A DNA stretch of 64,000 nucleotides, from contig NZ_CP058215.1 in assembly GCF_013388255.1 (NCBI RefSeq), forward strand, positions 1,116,001 through 1,180,000, in the 5' to 3' direction. Below, piece after piece: positions 8,789-47,262 of the stretch (its first letter is position 1; every line of letters starts with the position of its first letter). Origin of the DNA: Methanolobus zinderi. GTDB taxonomy: Archaea; Halobacteriota; Methanosarcinia; Methanosarcinales; Methanosarcinaceae. A model generated the notes under the pieces. It had not been told where the DNA came from. It saw nothing but the letters and a program-made list of their open reading frames with translations, and did not search any database. A program made the translations under genes and the position numbers.

Positions 8789-8804
8789 TGTCTAACCCCC
8801 GCTG

Positions 8805-11042
8805 TCAATCCAGCTGAAGTTTCTTCAGTACCTTCTCAGGTGTTGACTGGTACGCATTGATTATTCCTGATATCACATTGAAATCATTTATTTCGTTGCT
8901 TACCATGTACTCAAGTATCTTCTGCCTGTAATACAATTCCTGATCTATCCTTGACTGTCCCCATCCACGGCGCATCTTGATATCAAATATTGCCTTGGAC
9001 TCACCGGTTCTTACAAATACGTCAGACTCGGAATCCCAGACAAAGATATCATTGGTTCTGATGTTCCTGGTATTGGGATCGATGTCAATGATCTCTACAA
9101 GCTTGAGGTTCCTTCTTACACGCTTACCTTTGGTGTAGGTCTGTGCCTGTATACTCATGATGTCCAGTGCCTGGATCATCGTACGCGGGACACTGATCGG
9201 TGGGTTCTCAAGCCTGTGGATAGCAGATGCAACTGAGTCGGCGTGCATTGTCGAGAAAGTGGTGTGACCTGTTGACATCGCCTGGAAGAGCGTAAGTGCT
9301 TCCTTACCTCGGACCTCACCCACAAGCAGGTACTCAGGACGTTGACGCAGTGCAGCCTTTAGCAGGTCATACATATCCACGGCTCCTCTTTCATCCGCTG
9401 TGAAGGAGTCCCTGGTAATACTCGGAATCCAGTTAGGGTGCGGGAGTTTAAGTTCACGTGTATCTTCAAGAGTAATGATTTTGGCCTTTTCAGGAATGAA
9501 AAGAGATACTGCGTTAAGAGATGATGTCTTACCCGAAGCCGTACCTCCGGCGTATATCAGACTCTTGTTGTTCTCTATACAGAGCCAGAGATAGGCCATG
9601 GCCTCTGCCGAGAATGTGCCCCATTTGATCAGATCAACAGGTGTGATCGGCGTATCGCTGAACTTACGGATGGTAAAGGTACTTCCATGTGCAGTGACAC
9701 ATGTACCCAGTGTCATCTGTATCCTTGAGCCGTCAGGCATGGTGGCATCTATCATAGGTTCGGCGACTGAAATGTGTTTGCCACTTCTCTGTGCCATCTG
9801 GATTATGAAGGAGTTCAGTTCATCTTCTCCATATACTATATTAGTGGCAATGTTCTGGTGTACGCGGTGGTAAAGGAATATTGGAACATCATGGCCGTTA
9901 CCGGAAACATCCTCAATGGAATCATCGTACATCAGAGCATCTATCTTTCCGAAGCGCACGAAATCCCGTTTTATGTAGTAGGATATCTTGGCAAGTATAG
10001 CAGGTGTAAGTTCAAGGGTATAATCCTGGATAATCGACCAGATCTTATTATCGAGTACCTTCTCTTTGTCCTCTTCATCCTCTGATATCTCTTCTACCAG
10101 AAGTACATCACGAAGTCTGTCCATGATCTCGTTCAGGAGAACTTCTTCAAAATCACTAAGTTCGGGTTCCACCACATAGTACAGATGATTATTCACATCT
10201 TCATTATAAAGAATAACAATAAGTGTATAGGGTTCGTTTACCCAGTAACGGTCGATTTCCTCATATCCTTCGACCCCTTTGAATTCGGTAATAGGACCGT
10301 GTAATTCGGGGTCGTAGGGTTCCATCTCGAACTCGACCTGCTTGAACAGTTTTTTGATCTTTCCAAAAAAGCCCTTTTCTTCTTCGTCTTTTTGCTTTTC
10401 TTCACTGATCTCGTTCAGGGAAACTTCGCTATCTTCAAGAGTTTCTTCCTCTTCATCGTTGGTGACTATGTTCTCTTCCTTGGCTTTTTCTTCGAGGATA
10501 CTCTTTACCCTGGCCTTTGCTTCCTCATCCTTTTGAGATGAAAGCGTGTCTGCTTTCTTTTTAACTGGAGCTTCTGTTTTTTTGGGTCCGAAGCCTGAAG
10601 ATCTAGGAAGCAATATGTTCAGCTCATCGTCGTCATCAGATAAATCAGAATCAAGTTCATCCGTTGTGGAAGCAGAACTTGCCTTTTCTTCTTCAACAGC
10701 AGGTTTATCTTCTGTTTCGTTATCTGAAAAAAGCAGGTCTTCTTCATCCCTGTCATCTTCAAGCTCTTTTTTCAGAGGACTCTTCTTGATGATCGAGGTG
10801 AATTCTTCTTCAAGTTTCTGATCTGACTCCTTTATCTCCGCTAACTTTTCAAGAAGATTCGATGTTTCCAGAGAATCATCAGTTTCATCCTCATCTGTCT
10901 CTAGATCATCACTCGAATCGGATGACCCTTCATCAGCCTCGGACAGATCATCATAGGTCGATGCTAGTTCATCAGCCTCATCTGTTTCTTTGGCATCTTC
11001 AAGCTCTTTTTTTCCAGGATCTTCTATCTGAGCATCAGCCAT
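8805..11042 (-). CDS. Type II/IV secretion ATPase with acidic N-terminal tail
   Basis: About 745 residues, member of the ArlI/GspE/TadA motor ATPases. The C-terminal half carries Walker A GGTASGKTSS, an Asp box (ITLEDTRELKLPHPNW), Walker B with LVGEVRGKEALTLF and the His box HTTFSTMHADS. The first 230 residues are low complexity and dominated by Asp, Glu and Ser, with very few aromatic residues, and are probably disordered. The start ATG at 11042 is preferred to the ATG four codons upstream because a GGTGA sequence sits 5-6 nt before it. It drives the fused platform protein encoded 16 nt downstream. It is a clear paralogue of the ATPase at 39.7 kb (shared VYxExELNxF and PxxDATxxDGSR). Confidence 0.9.
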   Translation of the reverse strand: MADAQIEDPGKKELEDAKETDEADELASTYDDLSEADEGSSDSSDDLETDEDETDDSLETSNLLEKLAEIKESDQKLEEEFTSIIKKSPLKKELEDDRDEEDLLFSDNETEDKPAVEEEKASSASTTDELDSDLSDDDDELNILLPRSSGFGPKKTEAPVKKKADTLSSQKDEEAKARVKSILEEKAKEENIVTNDEEEETLEDSEVSLNEISEEKQKDEEEKGFFGKIKKLFKQVEFEMEPYDPELHGPITEFKGVEGYEEIDRYWVNEPYTLIVILYNEDVNNHLYYVVEPELSDFEEVLLNEIMDRLRDVLLVEEISEDEEDKEKVLDNKIWSIIQDYTLELTPAILAKISYYIKRDFVRFGKIDALMYDDSIEDVSGNGHDVPIFLYHRVHQNIATNIVYGEDELNSFIIQMAQRSGKHISVAEPMIDATMPDGSRIQMTLGTCVTAHGSTFTIRKFSDTPITPVDLIKWGTFSAEAMAYLWLCIENNKSLIYAGGTASGKTSSLNAVSLFIPEKAKIITLEDTRELKLPHPNWIPSITRDSFTADERGAVDMYDLLKAALRQRPEYLLVGEVRGKEALTLFQAMSTGHTTFSTMHADSVASAIHRLENPPISVPRTMIQALDIMSIQAQTYTKGKRVRRNLKLVEIIDIDPNTRNIRTNDIFVWDSESDVFVRTGESKAIFDIKMRRGWGQSRIDQELYYRQKILEYMVSNEINDFNVISGIINAYQSTPEKVLKKLQLD

Positions 11043-11465
11043 TAATGTCACCATTTGATGAATATTTTGAAGGTAAGATAATCATTTGATTATATTAGAT
11101 ATATATTATAATTACACATATTATTAAAGTTATTGTATCGAATAGGTACTGCAGGGAAATTCCTGTAAAGGTCCGGTTTTGCCATTAAACTTGCAAAACA
11201 GTCTGATTCAGTCTATTATGGATTTGAGATGTACATGTTTAAAACAGGCATGTACATGATGTGCAGGATAATTGCTGTAATTTAAGCTGGTTTCTGAAAT
11301 ATCTGTACAAATCTAATGGAAAGTCATGTATTTGTGTACATAGAACGCAAATCCCGGAATCTGTGTAGAATTCAAATGCAGTTTCACTCAAAAAAGTTAA
11401 ATCCAAGGGTTGATATGTTCTGGTAGAAATAAGAGAAGCAATCTGGAATTGAGAGGATATCCTGC
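11043..11465. promoter_or_regulatory. Divergent control region of the secretion operon and pheT
   Basis: No gene is visible in these 423 nt. A long A/T stretch around 11090-11130 can supply a TATA box for the minus-strand operon. Two copies of the palindrome ATGTACAT lie at 11229-11236 and 11250-11257, exactly 21 bp apart, that is two helical turns, a layout typical of a dimeric regulator binding one DNA face. A third, partial copy (TGTACATA) lies near 11335. Which gene they control is unknown. Confidence 0.35.
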
Positions 11466-32867: not shown

Positions 32868-33830
32868 ATGGATACGAGAAAAGTACAGGTAACCGGTAAG
32901 TCCACATATATTGTAACGATCCCGAAGAAATGGGCTGTTAAATCAAGACTGAAATCCGGCTCTCCACTCTCTATCCTGTATGCCGAGGACGGCTCTCTTA
33001 TCATCAAACCCCCGGGTTTTAAAGAATCTAAAAAGACAAAGAAGATCAAAACCGATAAGAAACTTGAGCACCTTAAAAGAGATATAATAGGTCTCTACAT
33101 CGTGGGCGATCACCATATGGTAGAGATACAGGGAGAGAACCTGTCCCGGGACTTCAGGGAAGAGATCAAAGCTCTTTGCACACGTCTTGTGGGCTTCGAG
33201 CTGGTGGAGAGTAGTGAAACCGCCCTTGTGATACAGAATTACCTTGATTCTGACGAGTTCACCATCGAAAAAGGAATAAAGCGTATGTCGTCGATCATCT
33301 ACCTGATGCTTGACGAGCTCGAACAGGCTTTTGGTGAGAATGACCGGTTAATGTGCAAAGAGATCATCAAGCGTGATGATGATATTGACCGGATGTTCAC
33401 TCTTGTGTCTAGGCAGTATGTTAACAGACTTAACCTCAAAAAGGCTTCAAGCAAGGATGCTCTGAGCCTGATAGAGGCCTTTTATTACAGGATGGCAGGA
33501 AGAGAAATCGAAAGGATCGGAGATCACATTACTAAAATTGCTTTGCATTATGAATACACTGAAATACATCCGGATGTTTTACTACTGCTTGCAGAACTCT
33601 GCGGGGAATTGCAAACCCTGTTCATGGATTCCTTTGAATCCCTCAGGCAGGCCGACAATGAACTTGGCAACAGGGTGCTTGAGAGCGGAGAGGAATTTGA
33701 CAGCAAGCTTGTGATTGCCGGGAATATGCCGGTCTACGACTCCATCGATATCATAATTGACAGTTTCAGCAGGATAAAGGACTATGCATCGAATATTGCA
33801 GAACATGCTATCGATCTATCACAACTATAG
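32868..33830 (+). CDS. Phosphate regulator: AbrB-type N-terminus fused to PhoU domains (copy 1)
   Basis: 320 residues. Residues 1-45 form a SpoVT/AbrB swapped-hairpin DNA-binding domain (VTGKSTYIVTIPKKWA). The rest is a helical PhoU-type protein: repeats around residues 120-200 (CKEIIKRDDDIDRMF, MAGREIERIGDHITKIAL) and the C-terminal half contain the E/DxxxD metal-binding style of PhoU. Such fusions probably act as phosphate-linked transcription regulators. It is the first gene of the region that leads to pstS, 3 kb downstream, and is paralogous to the protein at 46240. A/T-rich promoter DNA lies upstream of the ATG. Confidence 0.9.
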   Translation: MDTRKVQVTGKSTYIVTIPKKWAVKSRLKSGSPLSILYAEDGSLIIKPPGFKESKKTKKIKTDKKLEHLKRDIIGLYIVGDHHMVEIQGENLSRDFREEIKALCTRLVGFELVESSETALVIQNYLDSDEFTIEKGIKRMSSIIYLMLDELEQAFGENDRLMCKEIIKRDDDIDRMFTLVSRQYVNRLNLKKASSKDALSLIEAFYYRMAGREIERIGDHITKIALHYEYTEIHPDVLLLLAELCGELQTLFMDSFESLRQADNELGNRVLESGEEFDSKLVIAGNMPVYDSIDIIIDSFSRIKDYASNIAEHAIDLSQL

Positions 33831-34218
33831 GTTGATTCCTCTGTTTCTCAGTGTATCCGTAATAATCGATTATTCCCTAACCTTCTATTTTGCCGGAAGT
33901 ATCGAAAATATCCTTGCCCATGAGTTCAGTCCCACCCTTGTATTTGCGGTGAAGAATGATATAGTACTGCCATACCTGGCAGTTATAGTAGTGTTCTACT
34001 ATTTCATGGGTTATACGATTCTGAAGTTCCTTGACGGCGAGGAGATCTACCCCATCGGAGTCTTCATAATCATGCTGATGAGCCTGACTCATGTGCTGGG
34101 TGGTATGTCCTGGTACGTGCTGAGCGAGTCCTACTCGAACATGATTTTCATGCTGTCAATGACATCGGTTATTATAGCTCTCTCTGTTTTTGGGTATGAG
34201 ATATTCAGAAAAGGGTAA
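33784..34218 (+). CDS. Small membrane protein overlapping phoU copy 1
   Basis: 144 residues (120-136 if a later ATG, for example 33808, is used). Four hydrophobic segments; the first ends in IIDYSLTFYF, which recalls the D..T pattern of DUF5658-like proteins. The frame overlaps the end of phoU by 23-47 nt, indicating translational coupling. The second PhoU gene also has a small four-helix protein beside it (47257-47646), so a functional link between PhoU-type regulators and this membrane protein is plausible. No function is known. Confidence 0.65.
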   Translation: MHRILQNMLSIYHNYRLIPLFLSVSVIIDYSLTFYFAGSIENILAHEFSPTLVFAVKNDIVLPYLAVIVVFYYFMGYTILKFLDGEEIYPIGVFIIMLMSLTHVLGGMSWYVLSESYSNMIFMLSMTSVIIALSVFGYEIFRKG

Positions 34219-34523: not shown

Positions 34524-36548
34524 ATGAAAAAAAGGTTTTATGATTGGTTTAGTTTACTCTGTATTGTGGGTCTGGTTTTGTTTTTCTTAATACCTGCTCC
34601 TGCAATGGCAGAAAGTAGTCTTTGTCCCTGCGATGATCTTGATTATTGTGTAGAGTGGGTCAAAGAAGATACTGTCACTATAAAGTGGGGTCAGATTGGG
34701 AAAGCAATTGTTGGTGGCACTGAGTACAAGTTCAGGCCGGATGATTTCAATGAGGATAATACAGGAGTATTGATCTCTGCACAGAGGGGCAATGAAGATG
34801 TCCTAAGTGAATTCCTTTTCCTCAATGGTGACAGTACCTTCCACTGGGACCATGACATAATGGTCGCACTCAAGGATATCAGCACCGGCAGTCAGGAGAC
34901 CCCGGACGTTAAGCTGGAAATATATTCAAGAGGTTTACCTGAACTTGATTTTGAGTTTAAGGCGAGTTCTGAGAAAATAGATGACGTCAAGGTAGAATCT
35001 GATCAGTACGCACCGGGTGAAGAAAAATTCGTTGAAGTTACAGTCAAGAACACCGGTGATGCATGGATAGAGAATGTTGTACTTGAGATGGATATAGATA
35101 ATTTCAGACTCAAATCAAAAGGCGATTTTGAGTTCAGGGATCAAGTAATCAAAAAGAATCTGGGCTGTTTTGAGCAGGAGGAATCCAAAAAAGTAAACTT
35201 TACGGTTATAGCACCTGAATGGGATGGAACAACCTCTCCGTATTCTATTAATTACAACATAACTGCAAAGGCCGGTGGTTATGATATCAAGGGTGGCTAT
35301 CACAGTTTTGGTGATTCCACAACATTTAGCTGCACTGAGCCTGAAATAAAGGTTAAGCTTGAGGTTGTGAACGAGGAAATAAACATGAGTTCATGGTTCG
35401 TGAGACCTCTCTACACCCAGACAGATACGCACCAGTCCGTGGATTTTGAGATATGGAATGCCTGGGAACATTCCTTTTTGAGGACGAATATCTATAATAC
35501 GGGTCTCTATACGGTTGATGATCTTGAGGTCCAGTTTGCCGAAATCCCGGATGAGCTTATGGTCTCAGAGACTCACGAATCAGGTGATTACAAACGTGTC
35601 AGTCCTGAAGGACAGTATTATCTCGGTCAGAAACTGATCCCGATCGAGTCCGGCACCTACAAATTCCCTGCTGTGGTTGTGACTGCCGATTTTTATGGTA
35701 AGGAGTTTACATGGAAGTCAAAATCCGAAAATTTGAAGGTACACGGTCCTCATATCCTCTTCAGCAAATCCCTCGCCAAATCGGATGAAGGGTACACTGT
35801 TACCCTCAAGGTATCCAATGACGGTGACCGGCCTTCCTGGGTCAATGTTACTGACAGGGTACCATCTGATGTAAACTATATTGGCGGCAGCTTTGAGGAA
35901 AACCTGAAAGGTGAGGTACCCCTTTCGGAATGGGACTGGTCTTCTTCCAGGATCAACGGAACACAGACAATGTCAGTTGACGGTGTGCTCCTTGCACCCG
36001 GTGAGAGTTTCTCCTTCGGATACAATATCAATCCTGATAGTGCACCGGACCTGCCCTATGCCACATGTGAGTTCAGGGGTCTTCCTGACTATGAGGGAGA
36101 ATTGCAGTCGTCGCATTTTGTTTCCGGGAACGAGGTGGAGCGAAACTTCGACCTGTCCACAGGTGAATGGGTGGATGATACAGAAGACCCGCAGGCAGCC
36201 AGTGTCGAAGTAGCTGCTCCGGATTCTGTTGATGAAGATGAGGAAATATTGTATTCTATGGAAGAAAACGATGAAGAATTGATCGTTCCCGATGCGTCTG
36301 TGGAAGTCAGTGATGAGTCGGTCAATCCTTCATTCCTTTCAAAGCTTCTGGGACCTCTCGGAGATTATTTCAACAGGGCACAGCAGTTCGTGCACAACCT
36401 TTTCCAGAGCACTCTCGGAGGTTTCGGATCAGCCTTTGGTACTATGGAAGGTGCAGCCATCAATGCTGTTGAGAATTATCTCTATGCTATTGTGATAATC
36501 ATTGCACTGGCAGTATTCGGGATAGTTTACACCCTCGTTTCCAGATAA
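34524..36548 (+). CDS. Exported surface protein with CARDB/NEW3-like domains and C-terminal anchor
   Basis: 674 residues from the ATG at 34524, chosen over the upstream open frame because a GGGGAG sequence precedes it and a signal peptide (LLCIVGLVLFFLIPAPAMA) follows. After a CPCDDLDYC start the protein has three or so Ig-like or CARDB domains: APGEEKFVEVTVKNTGDAWI, HGPHILFSKSLAK and WVNVTDRVPSDVNYIGG, the latter like DUF11 repeats. An acidic linker leads to an amphipathic helix, then one membrane helix (YLYAIVIIIALAVFGIVYTLV). It is an envelope-attached protein; its place between phoU and pstS suggests involvement in phosphate capture at the surface, which is inference. Confidence 0.8.
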   Translation: MKKRFYDWFSLLCIVGLVLFFLIPAPAMAESSLCPCDDLDYCVEWVKEDTVTIKWGQIGKAIVGGTEYKFRPDDFNEDNTGVLISAQRGNEDVLSEFLFLNGDSTFHWDHDIMVALKDISTGSQETPDVKLEIYSRGLPELDFEFKASSEKIDDVKVESDQYAPGEEKFVEVTVKNTGDAWIENVVLEMDIDNFRLKSKGDFEFRDQVIKKNLGCFEQEESKKVNFTVIAPEWDGTTSPYSINYNITAKAGGYDIKGGYHSFGDSTTFSCTEPEIKVKLEVVNEEINMSSWFVRPLYTQTDTHQSVDFEIWNAWEHSFLRTNIYNTGLYTVDDLEVQFAEIPDELMVSETHESGDYKRVSPEGQYYLGQKLIPIESGTYKFPAVVVTADFYGKEFTWKSKSENLKVHGPHILFSKSLAKSDEGYTVTLKVSNDGDRPSWVNVTDRVPSDVNYIGGSFEENLKGEVPLSEWDWSSSRINGTQTMSVDGVLLAPGESFSFGYNINPDSAPDLPYATCEFRGLPDYEGELQSSHFVSGNEVERNFDLSTGEWVDDTEDPQAASVEVAAPDSVDEDEEILYSMEENDEELIVPDASVEVSDESVNPSFLSKLLGPLGDYFNRAQQFVHNLFQSTLGGFGSAFGTMEGAAINAVENYLYAIVIIIALAVFGIVYTLVSR

Positions 36549-36858
36549 TTTTCTTCTTAATTTCCTTATACACTTCTTTTTTTCTGTATCTAAAGGCTTT
36601 CAATCAGCAGGCAGAAGTATCCATATCTCTTGACTGATCTGTATCCTTTTCACAATATTTTGATTACAGAATGCTTCTTTTTCTTCCATAAAATATTCTC
36701 TGATTGTATATGCAGTCGTATATAGATATATTGTAAATCTATATGGATTGTTGGAGTATATACATTATTTGTGGAAGTATTATATATCGACGATACGATG
36801 TAGGACTCAGAGCGCGTAAAACCCGCTCCGATAGAACAACTAAAAATTGGTGTACGAT
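36549..36858. promoter_or_regulatory. Control region of the pstS-pilin gene
   Basis: No gene is visible in 310 nt. A perfect 8-bp inverted repeat ATATAGAT/ATCTATAT with a 9-nt spacer lies at 36720-36744, followed by further A/T-rich TATA-like DNA (36755-36790). A short GAGCG/CGCTC hairpin (36810-36830) lies in the leader. The inverted repeat is a candidate operator for a phosphate-responsive regulator such as the neighbouring AbrB-PhoU proteins. Confidence 0.4.
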
Positions 36859-37812
36859 ATGAACATAAAGAAACTTTTTAACAATGAAGCTGGTGTTTCA
36901 CCTATTGTTGCAACCCTCGTTTTAGTGGTAGTTGCAATCGCCGGTGCAGCAGCAGTAGGAACCATAATGGGTTCATTCTCAAGCGACGTATCTGACAGTG
37001 CAAATGTTGGCGATGCAACTGGTGCAGCCTCAACAGAAATCCTTATTGCTGGTTCAACAACCGTCCAGCCTGTTTCTGAACTCCTCGCAGAAGCATACAT
37101 GGACGCACACCAGGGTGTAAAGGTATCAGTACAGGGCGGTGGATCCGGTGCTGGTGTATCATCCGTTGCAATGGGAATCAGCGACATTGGTGCAGCATCC
37201 AGAGCAGTCAAAGACAGTGAACTCGACAAATACCCAGACATCAAGACACACCAGATTGGTGGCAGTGCAGTAGTAATCATCGCAAACGACGATCTTACTG
37301 GTCTTGCAACCTACAATGTTACAAAGGCAGACCTTGCTGACCTTTACATCAACGATTCAAAAGCAATCGACGGTGTTACTGTAAAGGCATACCAGAGAGC
37401 TGAATCTTCCGGTACAGAAGACACATTCGTGGACTTCATCGGAGACGACATCAACGACTCCATAGAAGGTGCAGTAGGTAATGCAGGTGTCCTTGCAGCA
37501 GTACAGGAAGACACAACCGGTGTAGGATTTGTTGACTTCGGATTTGCTGACGGCGCTGACGATGTATTCATCATGGGTGTCAAAGACGGTTCATACGAAT
37601 TTGGCTCTGACGAAATCACAGCAGACGCAATCATGGATGAGTTCGGTGCTGACAACGAGTACTACCTCCACGATCTTACAAGGCCACTCAACTACCTTAC
37701 AAACGGTGAACCAACTGCAATGCAGCAGTCCTTCATTACCTTTGCAAGGTCCCCAGGAGCAACAGAATACTTCACAGAAGTAGGCTACTTCGCTCTTAAC
37801 GAGATCGCTTAA
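36859..37812 (+). CDS. pstS: Phosphate-binding protein PstS with type IV pilin N-terminus
   Basis: 317 residues from the ATG at 36859 (GGTG 6 nt upstream). Residues 1-35 are a class III (type IV pilin) signal: MNIKKLFNNEAG, then VSPIVATLVLVVVAIAGAAAVG, which matches the archaeal Pilin_N pattern cut by prepilin peptidase. From about residue 58 it is a PstS-type binding protein: IAGSTTVQPVSELLAEAY, VSVQGGGSGAGVSS, ISDIGAASRAVK and RAESSGTEDTFVDFI bind phosphate. The usual archaeal PstS has a lipoprotein or ordinary signal. The codon use is biased, fitting high expression. A terminator separates it from pstC. It should assemble as a phosphate-binding pilin, or be held in the membrane through its helix. 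Confidence 0.93.
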   Translation: MNIKKLFNNEAGVSPIVATLVLVVVAIAGAAAVGTIMGSFSSDVSDSANVGDATGAASTEILIAGSTTVQPVSELLAEAYMDAHQGVKVSVQGGGSGAGVSSVAMGISDIGAASRAVKDSELDKYPDIKTHQIGGSAVVIIANDDLTGLATYNVTKADLADLYINDSKAIDGVTVKAYQRAESSGTEDTFVDFIGDDINDSIEGAVGNAGVLAAVQEDTTGVGFVDFGFADGADDVFIMGVKDGSYEFGSDEITADAIMDEFGADNEYYLHDLTRPLNYLTNGEPTAMQQSFITFARSPGATEYFTEVGYFALNEIA

Positions 37813-37899: not shown

Positions 37900-38808
37900 A
37901 TGAACAATAAAAGATTGGATGACAGGTATCCTCAGTACTTTTTCTTCATGTGCGCATTTATTACAGTAAGTGTCGCAGTTTACTTTATTCTATTTATATT
38001 TAATACCGCAATGCCTACCTTTCAAAGTCAGGGTATCATTAATTTCTTAACAGGCACGGTCTGGAGCTATGACGATAACATTTATGGTATACGTACTTTT
38101 ATCGCAGGTACTATTGTCATAACCATCGTTAGTCTGATAATTGCAGTTCCAATAAGCGTTTTTACTGCAATATTCCTTTCAGAATACGCATCTTCAAACG
38201 TAGCTTCGACAATCAGACCCTTTATTGAACTGCTAGTAGGTATTCCTTCAGTGGTATATGGTATATTCGGATTGTTTGTACTTGAGAATTTTTTCCAGAA
38301 TAATATTGATCCACTGATCAGTGCATTGAGTTTTATTCCGATATTTGAAGATCTAACTCCCAACAGAGGCAATGGTGTACTTCTAGCGTCTACTGTGCTT
38401 GCTATAATGATACTCCCGACTATTACCTCTCTTTCCGAAAATGCGATGCGTTCAGTACCGTTTGATTACAGGGAAGCATCTTTTGCAATCGGGGCTACGC
38501 ACTGGGAAACAATAAAAAAAATAGTTCTACCCACTGCATCTCCTGGAATACTTACAGCCATTATTCTTGGTATGATGAGAGCAATGGGCGAAACCATGGC
38601 AATAGTCATGCTGCTTGGAAATGTCGGACATGTTCCTGGCTCTATTCTTGATACAGGTTATGCCATGACATCAAAAATACTCAATGACATTGGATATTAT
38701 TCTGCAATGGATGGACCCAGAAGTGCTCTTTTTGCAATAGCTGCCGTTCTTTTTGCTATTGAGATATTTTTTGTTGCAGCAGCTCGGAGGATAGGTGGTT
38801 CAAGATGA
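37900..38808 (+). CDS. pstC: Phosphate ABC transporter permease PstC
   Basis: 302 residues with six membrane helices. The conserved ABC-facing loop is present as REASFAIGATHWETIKKIVLP (around residue 200), and GVLLASTVLAIMILPT and MMRAMGETMA match PstC. It pairs with PstA to carry phosphate released by PstS. GAGGGG lies 6-8 nt before the ATG. Its end overlaps the pstA start by 4 nt (ATGA), so the two are coupled. No PstB ATPase follows. Confidence 0.95.
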   Translation: MNNKRLDDRYPQYFFFMCAFITVSVAVYFILFIFNTAMPTFQSQGIINFLTGTVWSYDDNIYGIRTFIAGTIVITIVSLIIAVPISVFTAIFLSEYASSNVASTIRPFIELLVGIPSVVYGIFGLFVLENFFQNNIDPLISALSFIPIFEDLTPNRGNGVLLASTVLAIMILPTITSLSENAMRSVPFDYREASFAIGATHWETIKKIVLPTASPGILTAIILGMMRAMGETMAIVMLLGNVGHVPGSILDTGYAMTSKILNDIGYYSAMDGPRSALFAIAAVLFAIEIFFVAAARRIGGSR

Positions 38809-39698
38809 ACATTCGTAGAATGGAAGGAACAATCTTTAAGGGAATTTCATATACTGCAGCTTCATTAACAATACTTGCACTTGTATTGATTCTTGGCAGA
38901 ATCACTCTGGAGGCAATTCCAAGTCTTTCACTTGAGATGATATTTACTCCTGAATCGGAAGCAGCAGGATTTGGTGGTGGCCTTGCAAATGCAATAATTG
39001 GCACTATCATACTTTCATTAGGTTCAACTTTGCTCGCAACTCCGTTTGCAGTAGGTACTGCAATTTACCTTAAAAGATATGCAGGTGACGGAAAATTTGT
39101 CCGCTTTTTCAGTTTCATGCTTGATGTGATGTCAGGAACACCTTCGATAGTTCTAGGTATCTTTGCTCTGCTTCTTCTTGTCTATTCGATGCGCACCATT
39201 ACCGGAGGTTTTTCAATGATATCCGGTATCATTGCACTCGCTATATTGATTTTACCTGTATTGGAAAGAGCATCAGAAGCTGCAATTGAATCCGTACCAA
39301 CTGAAATAGAGCATGCAAGTTATGCTCTTGGTGCAAATAAATGGGAAACAATTAAATTAATAACAATTCCATACGCTTTGAGTGGAATTCTTACAGGATT
39401 TGTTCTTAGTGTGGGACGTGCAGCAGAAGAATCGGCAGTTGTTATACTTTCAGCAGGCTATAGTCAGTTCATACCTGAATTTAAGACTCTTCCAAATGAA
39501 AAATTCCTTTTTGGAATTAAAATCTATCCTTTCCAGGATTTAATTGCAGCTTTACCTATCACCGTATATCATTCATTTGAGTTCCCACATATGATTGATC
39601 GTTCAGAAGGATTTGCTGCTGCATTTGTTCTGATTGCCATTGTAATGATCATTAATGCAATAGCCCGTCTGATTGTCTGGAGGCGCAGAATTGGGTAA
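38805..39698 (+). CDS. pstA: Phosphate ABC transporter permease PstA
   Basis: 297 residues, six membrane helices, with the EAA-type loop EHASYALGANKWETIKLITIP near residue 180, so it keeps the docking site for an ABC ATPase. The start overlaps pstC by ATGA and its last codons overlap the next gene, a secretion ATPase, by 8 nt. In most genomes pstB would follow here; in this locus a pilus motor does. Confidence 0.95.
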   Translation: MNIRRMEGTIFKGISYTAASLTILALVLILGRITLEAIPSLSLEMIFTPESEAAGFGGGLANAIIGTIILSLGSTLLATPFAVGTAIYLKRYAGDGKFVRFFSFMLDVMSGTPSIVLGIFALLLLVYSMRTITGGFSMISGIIALAILILPVLERASEAAIESVPTEIEHASYALGANKWETIKLITIPYALSGILTGFVLSVGRAAEESAVVILSAGYSQFIPEFKTLPNEKFLFGIKIYPFQDLIAALPITVYHSFEFPHMIDRSEGFAAAFVLIAIVMIINAIARLIVWRRRIG

Positions 39699-41829
39699 AC
39701 TGCGCTTAAAATCCAGATTGAGTGGAAGAAAACCACGCTCGGAACCAGATGATATTGAAGATAGCTCAGCTTATATTGAAGAGATTGAAGAGGAAACTAT
39801 TGAAGAAAGTGCAGATGACGGGGTAATTTCCACAAAAGAACATACGGTTAAAGAGGAAGTTATCTCTCTTCCGAAAGAATCCAATCCCGAAGATGGTTTT
39901 GACCATGCTATTATGGATTATATGGAAAATGATAGTACTTCTGTATCCGAAAAATCACAAATAGCTGAAGAGGAGCTCATAGAACCTACGGAAGAAAAGG
40001 AAGAAACACCTTCCAAAAAGAAAAGATTTGGTCTGAGCCTGGGTAGAAAGCGCAAAAAATCTTCTGTAGCTAAACAGGATACTAAAAAGGCAGAACCTCC
40101 AAAGGAAAAGGAAAAAGCAGACGTCAAGCCTGCAAAGAAGAAAAAAAAGTTCAGTCTCAACTTTGGAAGAAAAAAGAAATCTTCCGGTGAAAACACAGAT
40201 CAAGATGAATCAAACTCCGCAAACGGGCAGGGACAGGAATCCGCAAAGAAGTCCTCTTCTTCCCTTCTTAATAAGATTGAACAGATAATAACCCCCAAAC
40301 CCGAATCAATCGAAGAGATGGAATTCGTTGTCGGTGAATTATCCGTTCCTGCTCCCGGAGTTCCTCAAAAGGACGTTGATATCACCTATGAAGTGACACC
40401 TGGGTGTCAGTATGTGCATATCGGTTTTGAAGGTGAGTCACTGGTCTATAACTGTATGGAGCCACCCATGAGTGAAAGTGAGGAGGAGGCGTTTTACATC
40501 ATAAAGAATGCCTTTGACAAGATGGCACACTCTGAGATCCTGCTCGTGGAAGAAGAGGATCGTGTGGAAGCACTCAGGGACAGGTTCGAGCTTATCGTGG
40601 ACATCTACCGTCTGAAGCTCAGTGATACCCAGAAGGACAAATTCTTCTATTATTTGCATAAGAAGTACATGGGCTTTGACAGGATGGACCTGCTCATGAA
40701 AGATCCCTATATCGAGGATATCACCTGTAATGGTCCCTACACTCCGCTTTATGTCAATCACAGGGTCTACGGCTCGGTGGCCACGGATGTGGTCTACGAG
40801 GAGATAGAGCTCAACAACTTTGTCATGAGAATGGCACAGGCAGCAGGCAGGCATATCTCCGTGCTTGAGCCCATCAGGGACGCAACCCTTGTGGACGGAA
40901 GCCGTGCCAATCTGACACTCGGGAAAGAAGTAACGAAAAGAGGCTCGACCTTTACCATCAGGCGTTTCAAATCAAATCCGGTTTCCTGTATCGATCTGAT
41001 GAACTACAAAACATACGATTCAACAGTACTCGCCTATTTCTGGCTCATGGTGGAATACAAACGGTCCGTACTGGCAGCAGGTGGAACAGCATCCGGTAAG
41101 ACCACAACCCTCAACGCCCTCGGAGCCTTCATCCCGCCGGAGTACAAGATCGTGTCAATCGAGGATACCGCTGAGATGAACCTCATGCATCCCAACTGGA
41201 CCCAGTCCATCACAAGGGCCGGATTTGGTGGAAATGAAGGCGGGAAGTCTGCCGGAGATATCGAACTCTACGACCTCCTGAAAGCCGCACTGAGGCAGAG
41301 GCCTGAATACATCGTTGTCGGTGAGGTTCGTGGTGCTGAAGCTGGTACCCTTTTCCAGGCCATCTCAGTCGGTCACCCCTGTATGGGTACAATACACGCA
41401 GGTTCCATACATGAGTTGCTTTCGAGAGTGGAATCCGAACCCATGAACGTGCCAAGGAACCTCTTTGCCAGTGTGGATATGGTAATTTTCAATGCCATGA
41501 TAAAGGTCGGTGAACATTTCCTCAGGCGTGCACTGAGGATCGTGGAGATAGTGGAACTGGATTCTGAACGTGGTGATCTTATCACAAACCCGGTATTCAA
41601 ATGGAACCCTGTTACGGACGAATATGAGTATAGCGGCAGCAGTGCTCTTTTCGATGCTATATATGAGGAATTCGGTATCGACCAGTCGGAACTTGTACAG
41701 GAGATGAATATCAGGGCAAAATATCTTGAAAGCCTTGCAAGTGAAGGTATTACCGAATACGAGGCAGTTGCCAAAGCCATCAGGAAATATTCGAGACACA
41801 AGGATGAACTGATGGAGATGATGCATTAA
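39691..41829 (+). CDS. Type IV pilus/secretion ATPase with basic repeated tail
   Basis: 712 residues. TTG at 39691 is chosen as start because GGAGG lies 7 nt upstream and it overlaps the pstA stop (TTGGGTAA), suggesting translational coupling; an upstream TTG at 39673 is possible. The first 220 residues are low complexity, rich in Lys, Glu and Ser, and contain two related basic repeats, KKRFGLSLGRKRKKSS and KKKFSLNFGRKKKSS. The catalytic half has Walker A GGTASGKTTT, IVSIEDTAEMNLMHPNW, VVGEVRGAEAGTLF and HPCMGTIHAGS. It belongs with ArlI/TadA motors and powers the platform proteins encoded next. It is a paralogue of the acidic-tailed ATPase at 8.8 kb. Confidence 0.92.
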   Translation: MGKLRLKSRLSGRKPRSEPDDIEDSSAYIEEIEEETIEESADDGVISTKEHTVKEEVISLPKESNPEDGFDHAIMDYMENDSTSVSEKSQIAEEELIEPTEEKEETPSKKKRFGLSLGRKRKKSSVAKQDTKKAEPPKEKEKADVKPAKKKKKFSLNFGRKKKSSGENTDQDESNSANGQGQESAKKSSSSLLNKIEQIITPKPESIEEMEFVVGELSVPAPGVPQKDVDITYEVTPGCQYVHIGFEGESLVYNCMEPPMSESEEEAFYIIKNAFDKMAHSEILLVEEEDRVEALRDRFELIVDIYRLKLSDTQKDKFFYYLHKKYMGFDRMDLLMKDPYIEDITCNGPYTPLYVNHRVYGSVATDVVYEEIELNNFVMRMAQAAGRHISVLEPIRDATLVDGSRANLTLGKEVTKRGSTFTIRRFKSNPVSCIDLMNYKTYDSTVLAYFWLMVEYKRSVLAAGGTASGKTTTLNALGAFIPPEYKIVSIEDTAEMNLMHPNWTQSITRAGFGGNEGGKSAGDIELYDLLKAALRQRPEYIVVGEVRGAEAGTLFQAISVGHPCMGTIHAGSIHELLSRVESEPMNVPRNLFASVDMVIFNAMIKVGEHFLRRALRIVEIVELDSERGDLITNPVFKWNPVTDEYEYSGSSALFDAIYEEFGIDQSELVQEMNIRAKYLESLASEGITEYEAVAKAIRKYSRHKDELMEMMH

Positions 41830-41830
41830 A

Positions 41831-42748
41831 ATGGTCAGAACAGAAGATACTGATATTCATCAGGCTTTCAATGACGGTGCTACTAACAAGTACGTTGAGA
41901 AGTACAAGATGTTCTGCTATGTCTTCGGCAAACATATAGACAAAAAGCCGCAGAACGATATTGCGAAATCACTCTACCAGGCGGATATGATCATGACCCC
42001 TGGCATGTTCATGTCCCTGGCACTTGTAACAGCAGCACTGGCAACTGCAATAGTATTCATATTCTCTCTGATATTTTTCATGAATTCATCATCACCTCTG
42101 GTTTATATAAGCACCCTGACCTTTCTGACATTCGGACTGACAGTCAGTGGTTTTCCTTTCGTGCTCTATAACAAGATATCCAACAAGAATATGAACATCG
42201 AGCACGAGCTTCCGTTTACGCTTGGATACATGACCATCCTTGCAAGCTCGGGTTCCTCTCCCATGGATGTCATCAGAAAGGTGGCCATAGAGGATTACGG
42301 TGATGTTTCCACCGAATTTGGCAAGGTGATGTACCGTGTGGACGTTCTGGGTGAAGACGGTGTCAGCGCCATGAATCATCTCATCCGCAACACCTCTTCC
42401 GAATCCCTCAGGGCAATCTGTATCGATCTTGCCAATGCCATGCAATCCGGAGGTGGCCTGCGTACATACCTGGATATGAAATCCAGGGAACTCATGGACA
42501 TGAGAAGGAAGATGCAGCAGGAATTCGTTGATTCCCTGGGTGTGTACGGTGAAGGTTATCTCAGCGGGGTCGTAATGAGCGTCGTACTTGTGGTGCTGAT
42601 GATCGTGGTTACAAGTGCTCTTGGAATCGACCTTGGACCATTTACCGCGAAACAGATGTTCCAGTTCTTTGTCTACTTCATGCTGCCTTTCATAAACATC
42701 GTATTTCTAATTCTGCTTTGGATGAAATATTCAAGGAGCATTCTATGA
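41831..42748 (+). CDS. TadC/ArlJ-type pilus platform protein 1
   Basis: 305 residues. Two membrane helices (about 55-110) precede a type II secretion F domain (ELPFTLGYMTILASSGSSPMDVIRKVA) with the conserved helical hairpin, and two membrane helices close the protein. It starts 1 nt after the ATPase stop codon and its stop overlaps the next start as ATGA. It corresponds to the first half of the fused 726-residue protein at 6.6 kb. Confidence 0.9.
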   Translation: MVRTEDTDIHQAFNDGATNKYVEKYKMFCYVFGKHIDKKPQNDIAKSLYQADMIMTPGMFMSLALVTAALATAIVFIFSLIFFMNSSSPLVYISTLTFLTFGLTVSGFPFVLYNKISNKNMNIEHELPFTLGYMTILASSGSSPMDVIRKVAIEDYGDVSTEFGKVMYRVDVLGEDGVSAMNHLIRNTSSESLRAICIDLANAMQSGGGLRTYLDMKSRELMDMRRKMQQEFVDSLGVYGEGYLSGVVMSVVLVVLMIVVTSALGIDLGPFTAKQMFQFFVYFMLPFINIVFLILLWMKYSRSIL

Positions 42749-44112
42749 ACTTTGCCATGGATATTGAAAGATACCGTCTGATGATCCAGCGTCATGTGCA
42801 GATTCTGACAATACGCTATGATATCAAACGAGAGTATCTGACTCTGTGTGTGCCGATATTTGTTGCATTGATGATTCTGGCTATGGCCGTTCTCACAGGT
42901 CATACTTTTGTAACCGACGAAGCTGCAGGTGAGGTTGTAAGTGATGAAGAATCTGCAAGACAGGCTGCATATGAGCAGCTTGTAAAAGAAATGGAAGCTG
43001 CTGAGGCTGTGGAAAGAGGTGAGGTTTTACCCGCTGAGGAAGAAGAACCAGAACCACAACCTGAAGAAGAAAAATCCAAAGAGGATCTGGACCATATAAT
43101 GGTTTTTGCAATACTGGTTGCTATTATTCCGTACTCCATTGATTCCTATTTCCAGAAGAAACTTCTGCAAAAGAGGGAAGTGGCCTTCAGCGAACTGCTG
43201 TACAAGCTCTCCGAACTTATGCGGGGTGGTATCGATCCCGTAAAGGGTTTCATCAATCTGTCAAAGACCAACCTTGGTGTTATCACAAGCAATGCACAGG
43301 ATGCTGCATCTTCTATGGTTCTGGGTAAATCCTTCGAGGAATCCATGCACCGCATGTCGGATTCCATGAAAAGCCGCCTTGTTGCAAGGTATATTGATGT
43401 GGTTGTTCAGGCTGCATATACGGGTGGTAATGTTGCTGATCTGCTGTTTCGTACCTCGGAGGACATGAGGTCAGTTATATCTATCCAGAAAGAAAAGGAG
43501 ACCAATCTTAAACAGTACATAGTCATCTTCTATCTCGCCCAGGGTATCATAGTGATGCTCACATACATTCTTTCCACATCACTGCTTCCCCTGATCCAGG
43601 GTGTGGGTATGGAAATGCTCGGTGGCGCGGGACTTTCGGATATTGATTTCGAACGCGGCTTTTTCCATATGATCATACTTAACGCCCTCTTTGGAGGACT
43701 GATTATAGGTCAGATCACCGAAGGGGAGATAAAACACGGGTTCAAACACTCGGCAGTGCTCATAACCCTGAGCTATATTGCCTGTGTAACTCTTCTGCTT
43801 CCTGCAGGTGCCGGGGGTGCATATATTATTGATATCGTATCCGGTGATGGTCAGGAAGTGATGGGTGGTATTCCATTGCAAGAGCCAATAGTTTTTAATG
43901 TGACTGATATGGATGGAAATCCGGTTCCAGATACTTTTGTCAAGCTGTCAATATCGCCGGAAGGTGTGATAACAAGTTCCATGACCGAAGATGACGGTAC
44001 GGTATCAGTCTCGCCTGTACCCGGCTCTGAAGCCGGTACGTATATAGTGACTGCCGAGGCCGGAGAATCTAAAGGAACGGCAACCATTGTAGTTAAAGGA
44101 TTTGATGACTGA
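42745..44112 (+). CDS. TadC/ArlJ-type platform protein 2 with C-terminal Ig-like domain
   Basis: 455 residues from the ATG at 42745 (AAGGAG 6 nt upstream, ATGA overlap with platform 1). After one membrane helix comes an acidic external loop with a Glu/Pro-rich stretch (EEEEPEPQPEEEK), then a membrane helix, the type II secretion F domain (AFSELLYKLSELMRGGIDP), and further helices to about residue 370. The last 75 residues are an Ig-like or invasin-like beta domain (PIVFNVTDMDGNPVPDTFVKL to TIVVKGFDD), which by topology should face outside. Platform proteins normally end in a membrane helix, so this added domain is unusual and may contact the pilins or the S-layer. Confidence 0.88.
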   Translation: MNFAMDIERYRLMIQRHVQILTIRYDIKREYLTLCVPIFVALMILAMAVLTGHTFVTDEAAGEVVSDEESARQAAYEQLVKEMEAAEAVERGEVLPAEEEEPEPQPEEEKSKEDLDHIMVFAILVAIIPYSIDSYFQKKLLQKREVAFSELLYKLSELMRGGIDPVKGFINLSKTNLGVITSNAQDAASSMVLGKSFEESMHRMSDSMKSRLVARYIDVVVQAAYTGGNVADLLFRTSEDMRSVISIQKEKETNLKQYIVIFYLAQGIIVMLTYILSTSLLPLIQGVGMEMLGGAGLSDIDFERGFFHMIILNALFGGLIIGQITEGEIKHGFKHSAVLITLSYIACVTLLLPAGAGGAYIIDIVSGDGQEVMGGIPLQEPIVFNVTDMDGNPVPDTFVKLSISPEGVITSSMTEDDGTVSVSPVPGSEAGTYIVTAEAGESKGTATIVVKGFDD

Positions 44113-44278: not shown

Positions 44279-44974
44279 TCAGCCAACCCTTTCCCTTGTA
44301 TCCATTGTGATTCCCTGGCTGGTCACATTGTAGGCTATCATTTTGTTTAAGGGGAGGCTTCCTTTCATTTTTGGGATATTGATGTACCTGTTTATTTTGC
44401 CACCGGTGTACTCGGTCCTGAACTGGATTACGCCGTCAACCATGGAGCGGATTATCTTTTCGGCTCTTTCCGGAAGTATCCCCATATCCGCCGAAAGAAG
44501 AAATGTTATGTTTGAATCCCTGCTGATATTGATGAGTGATTCGATGGCCTCGGAAATGATTTCGACTTCCTCATGAATGAACAATGAGGAGAACATGTCT
44601 ATAATGCATACATCGGCATCGGTTATGTTATGAAGCGGCCCTGCATCATCTCCGTAGAGCCTGTTACAGAGTTTATGCCTTTTGTAGCACATATCAAACA
44701 ATGCTACAGGTTCGGAAAAATTTCCTATGATGGTCAGTTTTTCGTCAAAATCCTGGATTCCGAAGTTATTCATTTCTTCGGCCAGTATCTTTTCCGAGCT
44801 TCGTGTAGAGATATAATACACTTTTTTTCCGATAGCCAGTGCATCGGAACATATTTTCTGGAAGAATACGCTTTTTACGTCTCCTATATCTTCCTCGATT
44901 AACAGTACCACATTTTGAGGTACGTTTTTAAGACCGAAGCTAGTTAGCACCATCAGATTCCTTAAAGCCATCAT
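44279..44974 (-). CDS. KaiC/ArlH-like RecA-fold protein with degenerate P-loop
   Basis: 231 residues with the strand and helix order of KaiC/ArlH proteins. Where Walker A should be it reads LLIEEDIGDVKSVFFQKI, that is only a trace of GxxGxGKS; the Walker B position reads ADVCIIDMFSSLF. Thus ATP binding by the usual loop is doubtful. ArlH is the ATP-sensing partner of the archaellum motor ArlI/ArlJ. This gene lies on the opposite strand between the platform genes and a pilin gene, and may be the equivalent regulator of this pilus. Its promoter faces the pilin gene promoter. Confidence 0.65.
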   Translation of the reverse strand: MMALRNLMVLTSFGLKNVPQNVVLLIEEDIGDVKSVFFQKICSDALAIGKKVYYISTRSSEKILAEEMNNFGIQDFDEKLTIIGNFSEPVALFDMCYKRHKLCNRLYGDDAGPLHNITDADVCIIDMFSSLFIHEEVEIISEAIESLINISRDSNITFLLSADMGILPERAEKIIRSMVDGVIQFRTEYTGGKINRYINIPKMKGSLPLNKMIAYNVTSQGITMDTRERVG

Positions 44975-45077: not shown

Positions 45078-46211
45078 ATGGTTGGTAGTCAAAAAAGCTC
45101 GTTAATGAACGATACGTGTGGCGTTTCTGTAATATTCGCAACATTGTTATTGATCCTGATAACTATAATTGCAGCCTCGGGTGTGGCTTACATGGTCTCT
45201 ACCATGCAGAAGGAAGCCATGGACCGGGAAAGCCACCAGGCTGCAGTGGAGAGCGAAGAGCTCAAGATCGTGTCCATTGATCCTGTACACGGAAATGGTG
45301 GTTCCTGGCAGGCAATAGATCTCACAATTTTAAATCTCAATACAGCTGACTCAAGAATTTCCTCAATACGTGTAAATGACGGTTATTTCTTAAACTTCAG
45401 GGCATATTATGATCCGGATTCATTCGATGTGTACAGAGATTATCCTGCTGTTTACAGTGCTGGTCACAGGCTCGTTATCCCCGCTACAAAGAGCAAGAAG
45501 ATCCACCTGAATTTTTCGGACATAGTTATTGAAGGCTCGGAAACGATCTTCACATCCGGCTGGACCAATAACAGTACGGATTTTACTTACAGTTTGCAAA
45601 TGCATCCCTGGAAAGCCTACAATGGTGTGGATTTTGACTTTGTTCTAAACGACACAGCAAGCATGACAGAATGTTTGCCTGATGGTAACTTCACGCTGGA
45701 TAACGATGAGCAGCAAATCACATTCTTCGGGAACGATTCCGGTGGCAACCTCACAAACACCACAGACTATCAGATCTTCTATACAATAGATTTCGAATCA
45801 TATGCAGGTTCTGCACCCCTTGAGAGAGAACCCCTCAGAATAGAATTGATCACTTCTTATATCAATATCTTCAAGGAACTCTTTACCCCGCCAATGCCCG
45901 TGGCAGAGGTACAGTTCAAGGTAGAAAACCTACAGGCTCCTAATGGAACACAATCTCCTAATAGTTACTTCATACTGGATGCTTCCGATTCAATGGATTC
46001 TGATGGCTTTATCACCAGCTACAGATGGGCAGTATGGAAGGATTCAGGTAACGAGACCTTATATGACTACAATCTCACAGGTATGGTTGTACGACCGATC
46101 GGCATCGATTCCTATAATGACCAGGATGTTGTGATCGATCTTGAGATCACGGATGACACGGGCATGACATCACGACTCAGTCAGGTTTCCGGCAATCTTA
46201 CAGTTCTTTAA
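45078..46211 (+). CDS. Archaeal type IV pilin-like protein with PKD-type domain
   Basis: 377 residues. The N-terminus (MNDTCG then VSVIFATLLLILITIIAASGVAYM) is a class III pilin signal similar to that of the PstS-pilin. The middle, about residues 50-260, is beta rich with several N-x-S/T sites (NNSTDF, NDSGGNLTNTT). The C-terminal 90 residues resemble a PKD domain (YFILDASDSMDSDGFITSYRW). It is a large pilin-like or minor pilin surface subunit. It lies 28 nt before the second PhoU gene, apparently in the same transcript, and divergent from the ArlH-like gene. Confidence 0.8.
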   Translation: MVGSQKSSLMNDTCGVSVIFATLLLILITIIAASGVAYMVSTMQKEAMDRESHQAAVESEELKIVSIDPVHGNGGSWQAIDLTILNLNTADSRISSIRVNDGYFLNFRAYYDPDSFDVYRDYPAVYSAGHRLVIPATKSKKIHLNFSDIVIEGSETIFTSGWTNNSTDFTYSLQMHPWKAYNGVDFDFVLNDTASMTECLPDGNFTLDNDEQQITFFGNDSGGNLTNTTDYQIFYTIDFESYAGSAPLEREPLRIELITSYINIFKELFTPPMPVAEVQFKVENLQAPNGTQSPNSYFILDASDSMDSDGFITSYRWAVWKDSGNETLYDYNLTGMVVRPIGIDSYNDQDVVIDLEITDDTGMTSRLSQVSGNLTVL

Positions 46212-46233: not shown

Positions 46234-46239
46234 TAACTC

Positions 46240-47262
46240 ATTTCAGAAAAAAGAAAGATCCAGCTTACAGGCGGATCAACATACATAGTATCACTGCCGA
46301 TCAAATGGGTTCGGGAGAACGGTCTTTCGGCAGGGGATGTTGTTACTCTTTCAGCAAGGCCCAACCACTCTCTCACCATTATGGCAGAACCCGGAACAGA
46401 GGACAGGAAACAGCATTCCAGGGTTGAGATATCCCTGACCGGGGATTCGGAAGATGATTTCAGGATGCTGGTCTCCAACTATCTTGTTGGTTATGACATA
46501 ATAAAGGTAACATCTCTCAGTGACTTCACCGCAGATCAGAGGAAATTCATCAAGGAAGCTGCTCGCAGGCGTCTTATAGGTATTGAGATAGTCGAAGAGT
46601 CAAGGACCGAGCTGGTGCTGCAGAGCCTGCTGAACTATCAGGATATATCCCTGGAAAAATCGATCCATAGCATGTACAGGATAATTTCCTCCATGCTTGA
46701 GGATGTGCTGCGTGCGATAGAGAATCATGATCTTGAACTGGCACGGGATGTTATTCAGAGGGATGATGACGTGGACAGGTTCTATCTGCTGACTGTAAGG
46801 CAATTGAAAGCCTCCATAGACGACTCGTCCCTGGCACAGAAGATAGGGTTGGCTAACTCAAAGGATTGTCTTGGCTTCAGGCTTGTGGCAAAGAGCGTTG
46901 AGAGGGTCGGGGACCATGTCCAGAGGATCGCAAAGAATGTAATAGACATGGACTCACAACTTGAAAGCGACGATGAGATACTGCGTCTGGGTAAGCTTTC
47001 CAGAAACGTGTTCATGGATTCCATCGAGGCTATATCCACATCGGATGCTGTGTTTGCCAACAATATCATAAAGACATCCACAAAGATCTCCGCAATGGCA
47101 GACCATATCTGTAAAAAGGACTGCGGTACGGAAAGCAGGATCGGTGAGAGCAAAAGGAATATACTGGAAAGCCTGCAGCGCATCTCCGAATACAGCGCCG
47201 ATATCGCTGAGATCGTCATCAATATGCATGCAAAAGAGATGAAGGATGCCTGCCAGTTATAG
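46240..47262 (+). CDS. Phosphate regulator: AbrB-type N-terminus fused to PhoU domains (copy 2), ATT start
   Basis: About 340 residues when read from ATT at 46240: (M)SEKRKIQLTGGSTYIVSLPIKW matches residue for residue in register with copy 1 (MDTRKVQVTGKSTYIVTIPKKW), so the region before the first ATG (46381) is coding. The AbrB-type domain is followed by the helical PhoU-type part with ARDVIQRDDDVDRF and VAKSVERVGDHVQRIAKN. The presence of the PhoU family at both ends of the Pst-pilus cassette suggests control of it. It is convergent with the following small membrane protein gene, overlapping it by 6 nt. Confidence 0.85.
   Translation: MSEKRKIQLTGGSTYIVSLPIKWVRENGLSAGDVVTLSARPNHSLTIMAEPGTEDRKQHSRVEISLTGDSEDDFRMLVSNYLVGYDIIKVTSLSDFTADQRKFIKEAARRRLIGIEIVEESRTELVLQSLLNYQDISLEKSIHSMYRIISSMLEDVLRAIENHDLELARDVIQRDDDVDRFYLLTVRQLKASIDDSSLAQKIGLANSKDCLGFRLVAKSVERVGDHVQRIAKNVIDMDSQLESDDEILRLGKLSRNVFMDSIEAISTSDAVFANNIIKTSTKISAMADHICKKDCGTESRIGESKRNILESLQRISEYSADIAEIVINMHAKEMKDACQL

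Follow-up and report, generated by a model that had tools for sequence, protein, structure and literature searches.

The closest described counterpart of the locus reported here is the sugar bindosome of Sulfolobus (reviewed in PMC2910488 and PMC4371748), in which ABC binding proteins with class III signals are served by a type IV pilus (T4P) ATPase and a platform protein, with short pilin-like proteins alongside. The former review states that glucose uptake is strongly inhibited by basEF deletion and that 33 binding proteins were among the FlaFind positives of 22 archaeal genomes (PMC2910488). Archaeal type IV pilins of the PilA type (census, PMC4858521) possess an n-region, an [A/G]↓V-S-P processing region (arrow, cleavage), a conserved H-domain and a dedicated ATPase/TadC locus, and the canonical archaeal PstSCAB-PhoU system comprises a periplasmic-binding-protein (PBP) fold, PstC, PstA and PhoU-type regulators behind similar promoter boxes. 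The locus of Methanolobus zinderi analysed here, located in a stretch of 64,000 nt (the window), resembles all three systems in these respects. Literature searches did not find a description of such a cassette, and the main text of the 2016 archaeal T4P census mentions neither phosphate nor Pst nor PhoU, although its supplements may list individual genes (PMC4858521).

The central gene, pilPstS (36859 to 37812, forward strand), encodes a protein of 317 residues from an ATG at 36859. The original prediction, that the opening residues of this PstS are a class III pilin N-terminus followed by a complete PstS fold, was borne out on both counts. The translation opens with MNIKKLFNNEAGVSPIVATLVLVVVAIAGAAAVGTIMGSF, exactly as described, and the longer N-terminal stretch is MNIKKLFNNEAGVSPIVATLVLVVVAIAGAAAVGTIMGSFSSDVSDSAN. 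The class III (type IV pilin) signal occupies the first ~38 residues and consists of an n-region (36859 to 36894), which ends at the predicted prepilin-peptidase site NNEAG↓VSPIV (or EA↓GVSP; RA↓VS, KA↓VS and EG↓IS in orthologues), and an H-domain (residues 13-38; 36895 to 36972), which is nearly invariant in the orthologue alignment. Residues 53-295 matched PBP_like_2 (PF12849) above the cut-off with an E-value of 2.3e-18, and residues 20-312 matched the PstS family model TIGR02136 with an E-value of 9.6e-31 (107 bits, below the cut-off of 206.6). The AlphaFold model revealed a binding domain with a pLDDT of about 95, preceded by a low-confidence helix of 22 residues (15-36) and a low-confidence or disordered linker. 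PilPstS thus has a PBP fold with PstS proteins as its closest relatives; they were also the nearest solved structures in the Foldseek search.

No lipobox cysteine was present at the end of the PilPstS signal, so that an ordinary lipoprotein was ruled out; here a pilin signal replaces the lipobox of the canonical system. The PstS copies in the ordinary pst operons of the same genome, which adjoin PstC, PstA and PstB, do have a lipobox, as does the ModA-like binding protein of L029. Two of the genome's lipobox-type pstSCAB operons (L027 and L028; G000:C1:683000-697000 and 819000-833000) are near-identical copies, and a transposase-like ORF lies downstream of the former. In comparison with archaeal type IV pilins, PilPstS contains a full ligand-binding domain in place of the small pilin domain, and its H-domain (VSPIVATLVLVVVAIAGAAAVG) differs from that of the general pilin of this genome.

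By a strict FlaFind-type rule as encoded here (motif form [DERK][GA]↓), PilPstS itself was negative because it has Ala at -2 (E-A-G↓V), whereas orthologues with RA↓VS, KA↓VS, EG↓IS or EA↓VS were positive. A similar displaced site, DSAV, appears for Haloferax PilA2 in a table of PMC4371748. The pilin N-terminal models gave weak scores with PilPstS, namely 15.4 bits for TIGR02537 (cut-off 20) and 14.2 bits for PF07790 (cut-off 25.2).

Sequence conservation was compared among 26 PilPstS orthologues drawn from a full-length search. Residues 13-38 showed a mean identity of 93% and a pN/pS of 0.10, whereas the binding domain showed a mean identity of 50% and a pN/pS of 0.53; no other part of the protein is as well conserved as this signal. 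Signal peptides usually diverge quickly, and ordinary lipoprotein PstS had the reverse pattern, its signal being 37% and its mature part 66% identical. A recent exchange of identical N-termini was ruled out as the source of the H-domain identity, since the pS of the H-domain (0.53) differs little from the 0.65 of the remaining gene. Chance or an annotation artefact was likewise ruled out by the conservation, the pN/pS and the synteny, and the conservation of the signal is, as judged from these alignments, far beyond chance. The reading as a pilin signal is strengthened by the dedicated T4P ATPase, two TadC proteins, ArlH-like ATPase and second pilin conserved beside the gene, and by an A24 prepilin peptidase gene, which a family search found in the genome.

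The fast divergence of the PBP domain could also mean that it binds another oxyanion or ligand (e.g. molybdate, tungstate or arsenate), or serves only in adhesion to minerals or surfaces, with the phosphate label being misleading. Several genomes do encode a second, divergent pilin-PBP that may have a different ligand. Against this, a PDB profile search with PilPstS returned 29 sequences, nearly all annotated as phosphate-binding, and molybdate-binding proteins ranked far below phosphate-binding ones in both sequence and fold matches. Moreover, the PstS-typical ligand-loop segments GST(T/S)V, GSGAG, DIG.(A/S)S and R...SGT are largely conserved in the orthologues, and PstC, PstA and PhoU are encoded at the locus. 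We therefore regard another ligand as very unlikely. The second pilin-PBP (about 40% identity) was located at L065:12362-13444, L074:5933-7009, L086:6684-7808, L094:9284-10411 and L095:4759-5868, each near a PhoU1 homologue. Within the genus (L064-L088), PilPstS and PstC/PstA often share 50-70% identity as against about 70-90% for the cassette motor genes, as is expected of a protein exposed at the surface and of those that work with it.

The genes around pilPstS form a cassette on the forward strand, except where stated. It begins with PhoU1 (32868 to 33830; an AbrB/MazE-type DNA-binding domain and a PhoU domain by profile matches), conserved in the cassette, a small hydrophobic membrane-type protein without a Pfam match (33784 to 34218; 50-84% identity among complete cassettes), and a large surface protein with a signal-peptide-like start, a weak DUF11 match and a hydrophobic C-terminal segment (34524 to 36548). 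PilPstS is followed by the permeases PstC (37900 to 38808; TIGR02138, 298.9 bits) and PstA (38805 to 39698; TIGR00974, 244.2 bits), both above cut-off. The motor comprises a type IV pilus/archaellum-type assembly ATPase with the Walker A motif GGTASGKT (39673 to 41829, exact start uncertain) and the T2SSF-type platform proteins TadC1 (41831 to 42748) and TadC2 (42718 to 44112), assigned by profile matches. TadC2 ends in an Ig-like (Big_1) domain, which seems unusual in a platform protein. An ArlH/KaiC-like ATPase (44279 to 44974, reverse strand; NF052589 and PF06745) precedes PilX (45078 to 46211), a second pilin-like protein with a class III signal (CG↓VSVIFATLLLIL), beta domains and a weak PKD-like C-terminus. 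The last gene encodes PhoU2 (46240 to 47262), another AbrB/MazE-PhoU regulator. An in-frame TAA lies just upstream of its AbrB domain with no ATG, GTG or TTG in between (46234-46242), and translation probably starts at the ATT codon at 46240.

As in the Bas system, a predicted class III binding protein is thus linked to a dedicated T4P ATPase and platform. The motor did not score as an orthologue of BasE/BasF: the cassette ATPase reached 196 bits with the BasE model NF053672 (cut-off 1000), and NF053673 (BasF) gave 32 bits (cut-off 1300). The ArlI and ArlJ models outscored the BasE and BasF models on the cassette motor, likewise below their own cut-offs, and the ATPase was far under the NCBIfam cut-offs for both BasE and ArlI. 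The locus also differs from the Sulfolobus bindosome in that its binding protein is of the phosphate type instead of sugar-binding, its lineage is Halobacteriota, its platform is split into two TadC proteins with an ArlH-like ATPase, and receptor, permease, motor, second pilin and PhoU regulators are united in one conserved cassette. A second, separate pair of a T4P ATPase and a TadC-type protein (PilB3-like; 6608-11054, reverse strand) adjoins RNase HII in the window. In a phylogenetic tree, the cassette ATPases grouped as a single clade, to which none of the four other ATPases included from this genome belonged.

The gene order PhoU1, small membrane protein, surface protein, PilPstS, PstC, PstA, ATPase, TadC1, TadC2, ArlH-like ATPase, PilX and PhoU2 recurs across many related genomes and is conserved over many genera and several families. 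With completeness judged as far as each contig allows, whole or partial cassettes were detected in Methanolobus, Methanomethylovorans, Methanosarcina-type and ANME-type genomes (ANME-2 and ANME-1), Methanocellales and other Halobacteriota. By our own count, a pilin-type PstS copy is present in 36 of the 238 genomes available for the class. A T4P ATPase of the cassette type was found within 11 kb of 42 of the 53 pilin-type PstS genes, as against 1 of the 49 without the signal. When the comparison was confined to loci flanked by 8 kb or more in each direction, the counts were 26 of 29 and 1 of 15, respectively; the p-values (4e-17 for all loci and 8e-8 for those with long flanks) ignore relatedness and are inflated by shared ancestry. 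On a quick tree of the binding domain, the pilin label required three changes, a single gain with two losses nested within it (L090-L092 and L161-L167). In both of these apparent losses of the signal, the copies concerned are not linked to the cassette.

The pilin-type N-terminus might be an alternative membrane anchor only; PilPstS would then be exported, perhaps cleaved, and stay single beside PstCA, while the pilus genes build a separate PilX pilus. The short predicted helix and flexible linker of PilPstS do resemble an anchored receptor, unlike the model of PilX, which has a full alpha-1 helix of 47 residues, as in a pilin, so that PilX could be the sole real subunit. Most pilin-type copies without a linked ATPase lie near contig ends, but those of L070, L075 and L094 do not, and they are away from ATPase genes. 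For an anchor, however, hydrophobicity alone would suffice, yet the H-domain is near-invariant residue by residue, with a pN/pS of 0.06-0.10. The unlinked copies of L090-L092 and L161-L167 have degenerate transmembrane or lipobox N-termini, and lipoboxes already serve the other PstS copies of the same genome. A simple anchor is thus considered unlikely.

PstB is absent from the cassette of this genome, a further difference from the canonical system, as is the fixed linkage to pilus genes. In L067, an ordinary pstC-pstA-pstB-phoU operon of the same orientation is directly continuous with the start of the cassette, which suggests a source of the missing PstB. With PhoU-type regulators at both ends of the cassette and no PstB, PilPstS-PstCA might instead sense phosphate, reporting its external level to the AbrB-PhoU proteins and controlling a pilus for adhesion or spreading. 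Methanoperedens-like loci (identity inferred) fit such a role, as they retain pilin-PstS, the ATPase, the TadC pair, PilX and PhoU without an adjacent PstC/PstA. In the cassette, however, the permeases PstC and PstA are well conserved and EAA-type coupling loops can be read in their sequences (EASFAIGATHWETIKKIVLP and EHASYALGANKWETIKLITIP), and this, together with the arrangement in L067, speaks for transport; sensing in place of uptake appears improbable. In most of the Methanoperedens-like loci (L097-L102), a single pilus motor is accompanied by two distinct PstS genes with pilin signals.

The region upstream of pilPstS (36720 to 36858, forward strand) contains ATATAG/CTATAT boxes, a TATA-like element (ATTATATATC) and a leader stem GAGCG...CGCTC, and is conserved in Methanolobus-type loci; the stem shows one compensatory change, to GAGTG...CACTC, in L088. 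In an exploratory count of the boxes, which were first noticed in the PilPstS set and then counted elsewhere, the regions upstream of ordinary pst operons contained 3, 5, 2, 4, 5 and 4 boxes per 200 bp, compared with 0.43 on average in the background (p 2e-6), and the same boxes were enriched upstream of the PhoU1/2 genes (p 3e-4). This pattern suggests that control is shared between PilPstS and phosphate uptake.

In summary, the signal, the fold, the conserved cassette, the selection on the helix, the linkage and the shared promoter boxes, all evident in the sequences, point to a dedicated phosphate-uptake bindosome, in which a dedicated pilus motor would assemble a prepilin-processed receptor that feeds PstCA; we assign this reading a probability of about 70%. 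The A24 prepilin peptidase would probably cut PilPstS just before VSPIV. The freed hydrophobic helix, perhaps accompanied or seeded by PilX, may then enter a type IV pilus-like assembly, which the cassette ATPase and the TadC1/TadC2 platform would build under the ArlH-like regulator, and the flexible linker would carry the phosphate-binding domain to the level of the S-layer or past it. Bound phosphate would be passed to the cassette PstC/PstA, with PstB of the ordinary pst operon probably energising them in trans, and the AbrB-PhoU proteins at both ends probably activate the cassette when phosphate is scarce. Because the helix of PilPstS is short and its linker long, a long filament should be assumed only with caution; a long pilus is no more plausible than a short, pseudopilus-like assembly or one close to the membrane. 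A bolder form of the phosphate bindosome, which we consider possible but doubtful, is a dynamic phosphate-collecting pilus with PilPstS as the main subunit, which would extend to the medium or to phosphate minerals and be retracted or depolymerised beside PstCA, so that the motor takes part directly in uptake. If true, such a pilus would occur across methanogens and anaerobic methanotrophs.

The bindosome has so far rested on the sugar-binding proteins of Sulfolobus, and the cassette described here would provide a phosphate version that unites receptor, permease, motor, second pilin and regulators. Since its carriers include cultured Methanolobus and Methanosarcina-type archaea, the question of whether pilin-signal binding proteins assemble into a surface structure that promotes uptake would become directly testable. 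These results suggest that such archaea build a surface structure for phosphate collection, which, in methanogens and in archaea that oxidise methane, would tie the supply of phosphate to surface structures.
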